Shown here: positions 41,166 to 48,836 of the stretch, piece by piece | Layout: each line of letters opens with the position of its first letter | How positions within the stretch are numbered: the stretch's first letter is position 1 | Assembly: GCF_025913575.1 (NCBI RefSeq) | Contig: NZ_CP109785.1 | Span: forward strand, 2,356,001-2,420,000 | Source of the DNA: Halocatena marina | Lineage (GTDB): Archaea; Halobacteriota; Halobacteria; Halobacteriales; Haloarculaceae | Length of the DNA stretch: 64,000 nucleotides | Direction of reading: 5' to 3' | Position numbers and translations under genes: made by a program | The notes under the pieces: generated by a model | Databases searched by the model: none | Seen by the model: only the letters and a program-made list of their open reading frames with translations | Told to the model about the DNA's origin: nothing

Positions 41166-42149
41166 ATGGTCCGAGACAAGTCTCGTCGCCGATTTTTGCA
41201 ATTGGCGGCTGCTGGTGCAACATCAGCCGGAGTTAGTCGTATCGCAACTACCCGAGGGCGGGCACTGCCTGCCGTCGGTGGTCCCTCGGTCATCGGCCAA
41301 ACTGGCCGAATCGTCGCTGGTCAGAGCGATCCTGACCGCTGGGCCCGTGTCTCATTTGATATCCCGTTTGCACTCACCCCCGTCGTTATCATGAACCCCG
41401 TCACCGCAAACGAGACGGCCCCCGTCGATGTCCACATCCGGAAGGTTACCCGGAACGGCTTTGAGTTCCGCCTCGAAGAGTGGGATTACCAAGACGGCGA
41501 GCACGCCGCCGAAGAACTACACTTCCTTGCGATGGCACGCGGTGTCCACGAACTCGTCGGCGCACTCCTCAACGCCGAAGCCGGCTTCGTCGCCGCTAAC
41601 ACCACTGCACAGAGCGTCTCCTTCACGCAGTCGTTCTCCCAGCGCCCCACCGTCTTCGCACAAGCACAGACGCATAATGGCCGCCGCGGCGATGCCGCCG
41701 GCAAGGGCGATTCCATCACCACCCGCGTCGACGTCGCGGGCACCAACCAGTTCACCGTCAAACTCCAAGAACAGGAGCGATACCGACAGTTCCACCGCTC
41801 GGAAACGGTTGGCTACATCGCCCTCGAACCCGGTGAGGGCATCCTCGATCCGCCGCTTGGCAAGCTCGATTCGATCCTCGGCGGCTTCGAAGTCGACGCC
41901 ACCACCCAGACCGTCACGCACGACGAGTACCCACTCGAGTTCGCAAACGACTACGACTCACCCATCTGCCTCGCCGACATGCAGACACTCGCCGGGCACA
42001 ACACCGCCACCACCCGCGTGAGCGATATCGACGGAACTGGTGCAACCGTCGCTGTCGAGGAAGAACAGAGTGCTGACACCGAAGTCGAACACGTCCCCGA
42101 AGCCATCGGCTACGCCGTCTTCGAAGACGACGCCCTCCTCTACGTCTGA
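41166..42149 (+). CDS. Tat-exported protein with H-type lectin-like domain
   Basis: 327 residues. The start ATG at 41166 gives a clear Tat signal (KSRRRFLQLAAAGATSAGVS). The mature part has two similar beta-rich segments: SFDIPFALTPVVIMNPVTAN, VHIRKVTRNGFEFRLEEWDY and LHFLAMARGVHE recall the H-type lectin fold (six-stranded sandwich seen in snail agglutinin and discoidin), and TQSFSQRPTVFAQAQTHNG begins the second. Codons end mostly in C (CGC, GCC, ACC, TCC) and the GC content is clearly higher than in both neighbours, which points to a different history or to strong expression. No cysteine in the mature domain. Ligand unknown. Confidence 0.65.
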   Translation: MVRDKSRRRFLQLAAAGATSAGVSRIATTRGRALPAVGGPSVIGQTGRIVAGQSDPDRWARVSFDIPFALTPVVIMNPVTANETAPVDVHIRKVTRNGFEFRLEEWDYQDGEHAAEELHFLAMARGVHELVGALLNAEAGFVAANTTAQSVSFTQSFSQRPTVFAQAQTHNGRRGDAAGKGDSITTRVDVAGTNQFTVKLQEQERYRQFHRSETVGYIALEPGEGILDPPLGKLDSILGGFEVDATTQTVTHDEYPLEFANDYDSPICLADMQTLAGHNTATTRVSDIDGTGATVAVEEEQSADTEVEHVPEAIGYAVFEDDALLYV

Positions 42150-45198: not shown

Positions 45199-45257
45199 GT
45201 GATCACAATTGTAGAACTATCAGATTTAAGTTTTTCCGATTGAAATTGCTGTTATAG

Positions 45258-48200
45258 ATGGTCACGTCCGGTAGTACTGATGATCTCATCCGCTTACTGG
45301 AGCGACGAGTAGAGTTTCTGCGGTGTCTCGAATCGTCACCTCATCAGAAACCGGAGGTCGTCGAGGCGCTCGAGTGGTCGCGTTCGACTGTCGACCGCGC
45401 GCTCCGTGAACTCGAGCAGGCAGGCTTTGTCGAGCGGACGGGAGATGGATATGTAACGACGCTGGCCGGTCGACTGGCCACCATCGAGTACGACGAGTTC
45501 GTCGATCGGGTCAATAATGTTCTCGTTGCATCACCTCTCGTTGAAACCTTTCCCCGGGATACCCGCATTCCGCTTGAAGTGTTAACAGGCGTCGAGCGTG
45601 TTCCGACCGACGCACAGAGTTCGTTCGATATTCCAACGGCGGTTCGGTCTGTGATTGAATCAGCCGACCAGCTCACCGCCTTTCTCCCTGTTCTTGCGGA
45701 TCCGCTCTTGCTCGGGCTGTGTCAGTCACGTGTGGTAGAGGATACTCTCGATCTCGATCTCGTCGTCGGGCCAGATCTCTATGAAACACTTCACCAGCGC
45801 TTTCCGGGAACACTCGGACAGTTAGCCGATCACGGGGGAACGCTCATGCGTGCCGACCGATCACCACCGTGCTCTCTTTTCGTCGTGGAACGGTCGTCGG
45901 GTGAAAACGAAGCCATTGCTATCGCATACGACGGCGACACTCGTGCCGGAATATTCCGAAACGACACCGCCATTGCGTTTGCGCAGGCGCAGGAGTACGT
46001 AACCTCCGTCATCGAGTCAGCGACGGATGTCACAGAAGAGACAACAACGAATACTTCTGGTTCAGCAGTGCAACAGCGTCTTCCGGTGGCACAAACCACG
46101 GTTACCGAACATCACGGGCAGGTCGTCCTCGAACGGGAGGGATTCGTCGAGCTGACAGAGGAGTTTTTTGAGTCACGCGCACCCGGGCCACCGACGACCA
46201 GCTGGCGAACCGGTATCGACCTTGCAGAAATCGCGGCGGACCACGCCGTAGAACGGACACGTGAACGAAATGGCGAACGCCAGTCGCTCGTCGGTACAAT
46301 CCTCAATGGACTCAAAGAAGGCAACGATCACGCACTCATTGGACATCCTGGTTCGGGAAAAAGCACCGTCTGTAAGACGGTCGCCTACCGCTGGTACGAA
46401 GCTGGCTACGGAACCACACTGTATCGAAAGGAGGGAATGGGACAGGTGTTCGATAGTGCAACCGCACTCTGCAACCGTTTGCGCGAGTGTGATGGACACA
46501 CACTCATTGTCATCGAAGATGCGCTCTCAGCAGAAGCGAACGCCATCTTCCGCGTGATCGAAGCGTATCGTGACGATCCGACAGTGACCTTCCTCCTCGA
46601 ATCGCGTGAACACGAGTGGGACAATCCTTCGGTCCCCGAGCAGGAGACACACATCGATACCAACTGGAAAGAAACGATCGCACGCGTCGAAATGCCTGCT
46701 CTTGACGTGACCGAATGTGATCGACTCATCAGCCACTTCGAGACCGTGACCGGACGGCGAATCGATCTCGATGCCTCAGATCTACTCGATGGACACGAGG
46801 ATGACGACGATCCAGCGGCTCTCCTCGTAGTGTTGCACCGTCTTGCTCTCTCCGTCGATCCACTCGCATCGTTCAGAGCGATGACCTCGACAACGCTCAC
46901 AGAAGACGTACTACAGACCTATGACGATCTTCTGTCACTCGGTGACTGTGCGCTTGATGTCGGAGTGCTCGTTTCTCTCCTCAATGCAGCTGACATCGGC
47001 GTTTATCCCGGCTTCGTTTACGCGCTCACAGCTGACGATCATGATCGTAATCAGGAGATAATTGAAGAGGCACTGTCGTTGTTAAAAGGGCGCGTCGTTT
47101 TCGAACCATCCGATTCAGAGGATGGAACACGACCGTACCGCACGGTTCACGAGTCGTGGTCTGTACTGTTCCTCCAACAACTGTACAACAGAGGTCACGA
47201 ACAGCAAAAACAACGAGCAACAGAACGGTTCGACCGCGTCGTTACCGCTCTTTTATCGTTGGCCGATGACGAAACTCGCCGCGTGCGTATTGACTGGGAA
47301 TTCGCTGGGACATCACCAGTCATCAAAGAGATCTCTGCTGATCCACAAGGATGGGCAGACACGACGATCGAGCGGCTATTTTCCCTCGGTCTCTCTCACT
47401 CCACGCTCGTTCCGTTGTTCGGTGCGGGCTCTGACACGAAAATCAACCTCCCAGAGGTCTGCTCGGACGAGATGGAGATTCACTGCACCGAGTGGCGAGG
47501 AAAAATGTCTCTGTATGCTGGCAACTTCGACGATGCCGACCGCGAATTCGAGCATCTCGCTGACCTTGCGAGTGATGAAACGAGGGACACGACCGAAACA
47601 CTCCACGCAAGGAGCCTCAAACACAGGGGAACGGTCGCATTTCGTCGGAGTGAGTTCGACGAAGCCGAGCAGTTTTACGAACGGAGTTATTCGGCGTATC
47701 TCGCGGCCGGCGATGAACAGGGTGAGCTCGATGCGATCAACAATCTCGGAATCATCGCGTGGTCGCGTGGTGATCTCGACGAAGCGAAAACGTATCTCCA
47801 GACGTGTCTCGATCGCTATCGTGAACTAGACAACCACAGCGCCGAAACGGACGCGCGATTCAATCTCGCAACGGTACTCGATTCGAAAGGTGATCTCGAT
47901 GCTGCTGTCGATCACTATCGCGCCTGTCTCGACTACTACCGATCGATCGGGAACCATCGTTCAGAAGCGGATACACTCAACAACCTCGGTGTCCTCAATC
48001 GAAAGCGCGCCGACTTAGACGCGGCAGAACGCTGTCTCAAACAGGCACTCGATACGTACCGGGATATTGGCGACGATGTTGGAGAGGCGAACAGCTTACA
48101 CAGTCTCGGGCACGTTGTCCAACTCCGCGGCGAATTCGACCGTTCGATCGAATTCCACGAACGTAGTCTCGAACGCTATCAGGAGCTCGGCGACACGCAG

Positions 48201-48836
48201 GGAATGGCACAATGCCTCAACGACCGCGGCACCGTCGACCGCCAGCGGGGTGATCTCGCGGCCGCCAGACGACGCTACGAACGCAGCCACGATCTCCGGT
48301 GCGACATCGGAGATCGTCTCGGAGTCGCTGAGTCGCTTTTCAATCTTGGATCCGTTGCGCGCCTCGAAGGACACCTCGATACCGCCGTGGACCACATCGA
48401 GCGCAGCCTCGAGTGTTATCAAGAACGCGGTGACGTGCGCGGTGTGGCCAACTGTCTCCGACTACTCGGCACAATAAACCGTGATAAGAGCCGGTTTGAG
48501 ACGGCCGAGGCGCAACTCGCTGCGAGCCTCGAACGGACACACGAAAGCGGTGACAGAATTGGTGAAGCCCGAACACTCACACAACAGGGAATAGTTGCCG
48601 AGGAACGACAGAACTTCGAACGTGCCCAAGAGCGCTACGAAACCGCACTCTCGATGTTCCGTGATATCGGAGCGATTCCCGACGCTATCGAGACGTGCCA
48701 CCATCTCGCCAACGTCGCTACCGCGCTCGATGATATGGATGCAGTACTCGAATATCGCGAGACAGCGGCCGAGCTCGTCGAAAAAACAGGATTCGACAGC
48801 GGAGAAGCGAAGACGATGTTGGACGAAGACCGATAA
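45258..48836 (+). CDS. Fused FilR1-type HTH sensor, STAND-like NTPase and TPR protein
   Basis: 1192 residues. Residues about 8-75: winged helix (VEALEWSRSTVDRALRELEQ, FVERTGDGYVTTLAGRLA). Residues about 120-260: a FilR1/DUF1724-like ligand domain as in archaeal two-domain regulators (FLPVLADPLLLGLCQSRVVE, LMRADRSPPCSLFVV, AGIFRNDTAIAFAQAQEYV). Residues about 345-480: P-loop NTPase with Walker A GHPGSGKST near residue 362 and Walker B TLIVIEDALS near 415, then STAND-type helices with LSLGDCALDVGVLVSLLNAA. From about residue 770 to the end: about ten TPR repeats of exactly 40 residues, each with LNNLG and Gxx(D/G)-type turns. The layout resembles MalT-type signal receptors, but with an N-terminal DNA-binding part. 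I know no described protein with this architecture. Confidence 0.8.
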   Translation: MVTSGSTDDLIRLLERRVEFLRCLESSPHQKPEVVEALEWSRSTVDRALRELEQAGFVERTGDGYVTTLAGRLATIEYDEFVDRVNNVLVASPLVETFPRDTRIPLEVLTGVERVPTDAQSSFDIPTAVRSVIESADQLTAFLPVLADPLLLGLCQSRVVEDTLDLDLVVGPDLYETLHQRFPGTLGQLADHGGTLMRADRSPPCSLFVVERSSGENEAIAIAYDGDTRAGIFRNDTAIAFAQAQEYVTSVIESATDVTEETTTNTSGSAVQQRLPVAQTTVTEHHGQVVLEREGFVELTEEFFESRAPGPPTTSWRTGIDLAEIAADHAVERTRERNGERQSLVGTILNGLKEGNDHALIGHPGSGKSTVCKTVAYRWYEAGYGTTLYRKEGMGQVFDSATALCNRLRECDGHTLIVIEDALSAEANAIFRVIEAYRDDPTVTFLLESREHEWDNPSVPEQETHIDTNWKETIARVEMPALDVTECDRLISHFETVTGRRIDLDASDLLDGHEDDDDPAALLVVLHRLALSVDPLASFRAMTSTTLTEDVLQTYDDLLSLGDCALDVGVLVSLLNAADIGVYPGFVYALTADDHDRNQEIIEEALSLLKGRVVFEPSDSEDGTRPYRTVHESWSVLFLQQLYNRGHEQQKQRATERFDRVVTALLSLADDETRRVRIDWEFAGTSPVIKEISADPQGWADTTIERLFSLGLSHSTLVPLFGAGSDTKINLPEVCSDEMEIHCTEWRGKMSLYAGNFDDADREFEHLADLASDETRDTTETLHARSLKHRGTVAFRRSEFDEAEQFYERSYSAYLAAGDEQGELDAINNLGIIAWSRGDLDEAKTYLQTCLDRYRELDNHSAETDARFNLATVLDSKGDLDAAVDHYRACLDYYRSIGNHRSEADTLNNLGVLNRKRADLDAAERCLKQALDTYRDIGDDVGEANSLHSLGHVVQLRGEFDRSIEFHERSLERYQELGDTQGMAQCLNDRGTVDRQRGDLAAARRRYERSHDLRCDIGDRLGVAESLFNLGSVARLEGHLDTAVDHIERSLECYQERGDVRGVANCLRLLGTINRDKSRFETAEAQLAASLERTHESGDRIGEARTLTQQGIVAEERQNFERAQERYETALSMFRDIGAIPDAIETCHHLANVATALDDMDAVLEYRETAAELVEKTGFDSGEAKTMLDEDR

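Follow-up and report, generated by a model that had tools for sequence, protein, structure and literature searches.

The order of a DNA-binding head, a nucleotide-binding oligomerization domain (NOD) and a sensor of tetratricopeptide repeats (TPRs) is already known, from PH0952 of the archaeon Pyrococcus horikoshii and AfsR of Streptomyces coelicolor. In the published accounts, PH0952 (PDB 6MFV) has a putative N-terminal DNA-binding head followed by a NOD, an arm and TPRs (PMC6468293), and the NOD and TPRs of AfsR inhibit the activity of its SARP region, which is restored by ATP binding (PMC10936776). The corresponding account of Escherichia coli MalT states that DNA binding requires oligomerisation and that a loop ahead of the nucleotide-binding domain (NBD) serves both autoinhibition and oligomerisation (PMC10427625). 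Archaeal STAND regulators seem to have been hardly studied, and the one structural example that we came across, PH0952, is a predicted transcription factor only. Here we analyse a 64,000-nucleotide stretch of the Halocatena marina genome (NZ_CP109785.1, positions 2,356,001 to 2,420,000; hereafter the window), in which a gene at 45258-48836 encodes a protein that joins a winged helix-turn-helix (wHTH) and a FilR1 domain to a probable STAND ATPase and ten TPRs.

We consider it likely that this protein is an ATP-switched STAND transcription regulator of the MalT/PH0952 type: in sequence and in predicted models, a head, a NOD, an arm and TPRs are found in one chain, and DNA binding is predicted. 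The protein shares this domain order with PH0952 and differs from it in having ten TPRs rather than six, in a NOD that matches the Pfam family nSTAND_NTPase5 (that of PH0952 is placed between the APAF1 and MalT clades), and in its FilR1 domain, none being described in the available part of the PH0952 paper (PMC6468293). MalT is likewise a STAND transcription regulator with a TPR sensor; it is bacterial and has its DNA-binding domain at the C-terminus, whereas the head is N-terminal here, and a motif ahead of the NBD in the window protein is the positional counterpart of the MalT N-loop (PMC10427625). AfsR, like the window protein, has an N-terminal DNA-binding effector, a NOD and TPRs (PMC10936776). 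Free FilR1/HVO_A0261-type regulators have the wHTH and FilR1-like domains of the window protein but neither NOD nor TPRs, and EfAvs5 and other Avs defence STANDs share the NOD-arm fold; EfAvs5 has a SIR2 effector according to its entry title, whereas the window protein has no defence neighbourhood. The order of N-terminal DNA-binding effector, NOD and TPRs also occurs in GutR of Bacillus subtilis, and AfsR and GutR differ from the window protein in being bacterial, with a SARP or other head. To our knowledge, MalT has no FilR1 domain. The original prediction, made from the DNA letters of the window, had raised the question of whether such an architecture was already described; this is so for the order of head, NOD and TPRs, but a FilR1 insert on a STAND protein was not found in the open-access literature searched, mostly at listing level. 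New here are the FilR1 insert, a family that our searches found only in Halobacteria, and a chassis with exchanged heads.

Domain layout and predicted fold

The open reading frame (ORF) at 45258-48836, which, like its parts and the TATA-like box given below, lies on the plus strand, starts with ATG and has no internal stop, and is a real, intact gene; ORF reading, Pfam and syntenic orthologs agree that it is complete. As originally predicted, one chain of 1192 residues joins a winged helix and a FilR1-like region. The Pfam models HVO_A0261_N (residues 14-86, 62.2 bits against a curated cut-off of 35) and FilR1_middle (residues 123-246, 33.5 bits against 27) both score above cut-off, which places the protein in the FilR1 type. 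Together with the predicted model and an N-terminal alignment, Pfam delimits the winged helix to residues ~7-90 (45276-45527), and the FilR1_middle alpha/beta domain spans residues ~113-254 (45594-46019), where the model has blocks with a predicted local distance difference test (pLDDT) score of 66-91. Across the aligned N-termini of 30 proteins, conservation is strongest in a stretch of the winged helix, SRSTVDRA, whose R42 and T44 are invariant in 30/30, and a profile of the N-terminus gave two weak matches to PDB sequences, one of the ArsR family. Some wHTH domains bind no DNA, and the same stretch weakly matches CARF-associated models, as might be seen if the winged helix were a protein-interaction or messenger-related module; the conservation of SRSTVDRA and the occurrence of this domain in free FilR1-type proteins make such a role very improbable.

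Between the head and the NBD lies a conserved pre-NBD motif (residues 291-333; 46128-46256), which is common to relatives with FilR1, kinase and t2 heads, t2 being an unclassified helical N-terminus of ~170-220 residues. The NBD itself (residues ~344-478; 46287-46691) was assigned from Pfam, motifs, alignment and model. Its P-loop, GHPGSGKST, from which an NTPase had been predicted, is the Walker A motif at residues 362-370 and lies inside the match to nSTAND_NTPase5 (PF25199; residues 358-456, 41.4 bits against a curated cut-off of 34); Walker B is LIVIED (416-421), and we take Arg450 to be the sensor-1 arginine. A helical domain (HD; residues ~484-561; 46707-46940) with a GxP-like DPA at 518-520 is placed by the model, and a winged-helix switch domain (WHD; residues ~563-644; 46944-47189) with an MHD-like VHE (His631) and Trp634 is placed by alignment and model, both with approximate boundaries. 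Predicted models and structure searches define the arm (residues ~648-771; 47199-47570). An alignment of 31 of the 47 FilR1-class proteins (A2) shows no variation at the Walker A positions or at E420 and D421, and conservation of at least 90% at R450 and H631. Such conservation argues against the NOD-TPR part being mainly a scaffold or protein-interaction hub of a regulator with no ATP-driven switch, an explanation that we judge improbable even though the GxP motif is not strict and the TPRs also resemble the interaction arrays of LGN/Pins and Rap/NprR. Two t2-class relatives from congeners (L044 and L046) show what loss looks like: GKGT replaces GKST and the sensor arginine is missing, and because of these changes their ATPase may be decayed.

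An AlphaFold2 model of the full-length protein, built with 31 family proteins, had a mean pLDDT of 87.0 and a predicted TM-score (pTM) of 0.68. As the VIA structure search with this model was filled by TPR proteins, a separate model of residues 284-775 (the NOD-arm model) was made with 36 proteins (pLDDT 90.4, pTM 0.90), and in it NBD, HD, WHD and arm fold as one confident unit. The top VIA match of this model was EfAvs5 (Z 15.3 over 370 residues, model residues 4-492), with a root-mean-square deviation (rmsd) of 18.8 that corresponds to other domain angles, and five entries of SAMD9, a STAND-like protein, aligned with Z 13.9-14.9 over 342-385 residues at rmsd 4.8-5.4. The EfAvs5 and SAMD9 alignments begin in the pre-NBD segment or in the NBD and extend as far as the arm; most AAA+ matches (Clp, RFC, ORC, Rpt) comprise ~200 aligned residues and end near model residue 250-268, and three Clp matches end at residue 431. 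In a Foldseek search with the NOD-arm model, MalT (chain 8bob_C) ranked second, and NLRP3, NOD2, NLRC4 and Apaf-1 were also found, mostly at high rmsd and amid many AAA+ chains; PH0952 lay outside the best 50 matches, which excludes nothing. Because the NOD-arm region is modelled as a confident unit and the solved structures that align along its whole length belong mainly to EfAvs5 and SAMD9, we conclude that the window protein very probably belongs to the STAND class. The predicted fold accordingly contains HD, WHD and arm, and this answers the main reservation of the original prediction, that the ATPase might have a non-STAND fold lacking the helical switch domains; the single-chain signal-to-transcription layout is likewise supported by the domains and the predicted fold.

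The presumed sensor consists of ten TPRs at residues 782-1181 (47601-48800), defined by Pfam, register and model, and several Pfam TPR models across residues ~780-1180 all exceed their curated cut-offs. Each repeat is exactly 40 residues long, so that the count and length given in the original prediction hold, but 'near-perfect' does not describe their sequences, with a mean pairwise identity between the ten of 27.8% (range 7.5-50%). Self-identity is 0.30 at a lag of 40 residues (0.292 in the comparison of arrays across the family) and at most 0.125 at other lags from 30 to 49, and no DNA-level tandem repeat over this region was listed by TRF. A structural match of the array to MalT domain III has Z 30.3 over 355 residues at rmsd 3.7; subunits of APC/C, Rap/NprR receptors and LGN also match, with similar or lower Z. 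An assignment of the protein to HaaT (NF041717) was rejected at 285.9 bits against an equivalog cut-off of 1125, the best stretch (889-1139) falling inside the TPRs.

By analogy with MalT, AfsR and PH0952, the resting protein would be a monomeric chain with ADP clamped between NBD-HD and WHD, and the arm and TPR array would keep the NOD closed. An inducer, which may be a cytoplasmic small molecule, peptide or protein, would be bound by the TPR superhelix; ADP would be swapped for ATP, and the pre-NBD loop and NOD would drive oligomerisation. Several winged-helix/FilR1 heads would in this way be gathered on operator sites, where genes would be activated or, less likely, repressed. The FilR1 domain may dimerise the heads or provide a second ligand input.

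Genomic site and divergence of the gene

The gene lies between RaSEA and purQ/purS in four Halocatena species, H. marina and three congeners, so that the ortholog survey proposed with the original prediction yielded orthologs in three other species that keep both this site and the domain order; the architecture is therefore not a product of chance. RaSEA was found in 37/39 related genomes, and 30 of these loci were read with ~1.5 kb of flank. A STAND gene follows RaSEA in four of the 30; the site is empty in two congeners, where RaSEA runs directly into purQ, and no STAND gene was found within the flank read at the remaining 24. In Halomarina halobia (L104) and Halegenticoccus soli (L108), RaSEA, the STAND gene, purQ and purS occur together with extra intervening sequence, and in a Natronomonas metagenome-assembled genome (MAG) purQ adjoins a STAND gene at a contig end.

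Over the full length, the three syntenic orthologs are 54-57% identical to the window protein. In the same congeners RaSEA (82-85%), PurQ (75-78%) and the NhaC-like protein (80-82%) are more alike, and other nearby genes, for a histidine kinase (56-57%) and an AstE-like protein (52-54%), diverge as much as the STAND gene, which is therefore not unusually fast. The best-kept parts include the wHTH (63-69%) and the pre-NBD motif (70-72%); values elsewhere are 58-60% for the NTPase, 64-66% for the GxP/WHD part, 55-58% for the TPRs and 45-53% for FilR1. The window TPRs are 38-75% identical to the same-numbered repeats of the orthologs, above their mutual mean of 28%.

These data bear on a defence-type role, which the original prediction also considered. 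In such a role the TPRs would detect a viral or plasmid signal, the NOD would oligomerise, and the wHTH-FilR1 head would act on DNA, so that the invader or the cell itself could no longer transcribe or replicate. For this copy the idea has become unlikely: it occupies a fixed main-contig site, its TPRs are closer to ortholog repeats than to each other and are not homogenised, none of ten window neighbours had a PADLOC match at E 1e-5, and no relative was found among 600 pattern-matched viral stretches. What commends it is found mainly in the wider family, where the chassis carries other N-termini (kinase, helical t2 and glycine-rich), distribution is patchy, some copies lying on secondary contigs or on named plasmids, and 6/12 t2 copies have homogenised TPR arrays; in addition, EfAvs5 is the best VIA match of the NOD. 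Against PADLOC 2.0.0 the window protein itself had no clear match beyond its TPR and CARF-/Csa3-type wHTH parts, and only two weak matches touch the NTPase (mad8, E 0.0028; PprDinG, E 0.0076). Among the immediate neighbours of relatives, 81/84 proteins were scanned with PADLOC (three long ones were omitted), and matches were located for 10 chosen proteins, with one pVip match not among them. Those located at E 1e-10 also offer the defence role little: they are a pair of double ATPases resembling CDC48, two ABC ATPases and, next to a kinase-type relative (L045), a single partial match to mad2. Other branches of the family may still have a defence role.

Relatives with other heads

Some match to the window protein was found in 47/59 related genomes, mostly to its N-terminal part, and the NTPase part was matched in at least 17/59. 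A genome scan with the strict pattern GKST[VLA]C[KR]xVA, which diverged relatives can escape, gave 55 loci, all in Halobacteria except five bacterial matches (Chelativorans, Brucella, Mesorhizobium) that covered a 25-residue P-loop only and were dropped; two short partial haloarchaeal matches (L152, L157) gave no row. PF25199 exceeds its cut-off in 13/97 genomes of the class and 0/14 controls, a count used because all 97 genomes and the 14 controls match at E 0.001. In a plasmid search 100 records matched, and the non-haloarchaeal ones among the best 30 match the arm/TPR part only. The wHTH-FilR1-STAND-TPR family is thus seen only in Halobacteria by the genome scans made here. The H. marina genome holds two further full relatives, one on contig C4 with two winged helices (39% identical) and one on contig C3 with a different N-terminus (34% identical), and at least four free FilR1-type regulators (L005-L008). 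The C4 relative (L058:6073-10062), like L062, has two HVO_A0261_N matches before FilR1. In L143 (Halorubrum tebenquichense) and L149 (a MAG) the gene is split into two overlapping ORFs, by a frameshift or sequencing error.

For a tree of 63 NTPase-TPR cores, duplicates and these two split ORFs were removed; five loci with other ATPases or TPRs only (L049-L053) were excluded from the family alignment. The cores carry 47 wHTH-FilR1, 12 t2, 2 Ser/Thr kinase and 2 other heads. The window protein groups with its three congeners (support 100/99) and then with Halomarina (100/100); next (100/99) come Halegenticoccus and five Halocatena copies from secondary contigs, with no fixed order between them. 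The kinase pair (99/96) is nested, at a fork supported by 100/98, in an otherwise FilR1 part of the tree, which implies that heads have been exchanged, in either direction, on a common chassis. In a separate tree of FilR1 heads, the 30 fused heads lie on one side of a branch (99/97) and the 16 free heads, taken from the loci read, on the other, a pattern consistent with one fusion event.

The Ser/Thr protein kinase head sits on the same NTPase-TPR chassis in L045:5479-9840 and L112:5924-9907, and the t2 class comprises L038, L039, L040, L041, L042, L044, L046, L130, L131, L133, L139 and L144. A distant relative from Haloferax sulfurifontis (L150:1358-4879), which had no NCBIfam match, has an N-terminal glycine-rich hydrophobic stretch that is perhaps membrane-active. 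The six strongly homogenised t2 arrays have lag-40 identities of 0.475-0.671 and fall in two clades, and none of the 47 FilR1-class arrays exceeds 0.406; medians are 0.389 for t2 (n=12) and 0.242 for FilR1 (n=47), with a Mann-Whitney p of 0.002 that ignores relatedness.

More tentatively, haloarchaea may hold a toolkit resembling NOD-like receptors, in which an nSTAND5-TPR chassis with the pre-NBD motif is fitted with swapped output heads (wHTH-FilR1, Ser/Thr kinase, t2 or glycine-rich). Half of the t2 copies, with recently homogenised sensors, would resemble conflict receptors, and a branch of the class with transcription-factor heads would now be a stably placed regulator, such that within one archaeal class a single receptor would be used both for immunity-like signalling and for the control of genes; that all of this holds together is a possibility we would not favour at present. 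Since the haloarchaea concerned can be cultured, their stably placed STAND with a fused FilR1 domain is a subject for studying ATP-driven receptor control of archaeal promoters, and for asking whether regulator and conflict-type receptors use one chassis with exchanged heads.

Several observations weigh against an ATP-switched transcription regulator of the MalT/PH0952 type. The profile of the NOD gave P-loop-only matches to PDB sequences in the best 60 of 336, and STAND membership therefore rests on the Pfam model and the predicted fold. The full model matches PH0952 (6mfv_A) loosely in Foldseek (rank 33, E 1.6e-7, rmsd 23.4, TMq 0.20), the closest VIA match of the NOD comes from a STAND protein of defence, its domains differently angled, and two Clp matches nominally reach model residue 492, at rmsd 18.3 and 23.1 over 261 and 252 residues. 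The helical-domain GxP reads DPA in the window protein and PG or GGP in many relatives, and in one locus outside A2 (L069) N replaces the second Walker B acid. Relatives have a kinase or other head, as in conflict-type STANDs; the gene is absent from 2/6 genus genomes; and GAACGTTCGGGTTTAAGG, an upstream sequence, marks no regulon, because its exact copies stand only before the STAND gene.

Upstream region and neighbouring genes

A TATA-like box, TTTAAG (45225-45230), lies 33 nt before the ATG and was recognised by comparing the upstream regions of the window gene and its three orthologs (L054, L055, L056), in all of which it is kept 32-33 nt 5' of the ATG; it is the putative promoter of the gene's own, near-leaderless transcript. 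In three congeners the palindrome GAACGTTC stands ahead of TTTAAG and may be a site of autoregulation. GAACGTTCGGGTTTAAGG occurs exactly once each in 3/6 genomes, and the window's own copy is beyond 3 mismatches. A search of the six genomes for a regulon found GAACGTTCGGGTTTAAGG with at most 3 mismatches at 16 places, against 9 for a reversed control.

Of the ten window neighbours, which were scanned against Pfam, NCBIfam and PADLOC, those that could be named are an NhaC-like antiporter, RaSEA, PurQ, PurS, SAICAR synthetase, CofH, a histidine kinase-like ATPase, an H-type lectin, an AstE/AspA-like domain protein and a DnaJ-domain protein. The H-type lectin domain protein, at 41166-42149, has what we take to be a twin-arginine-like start.

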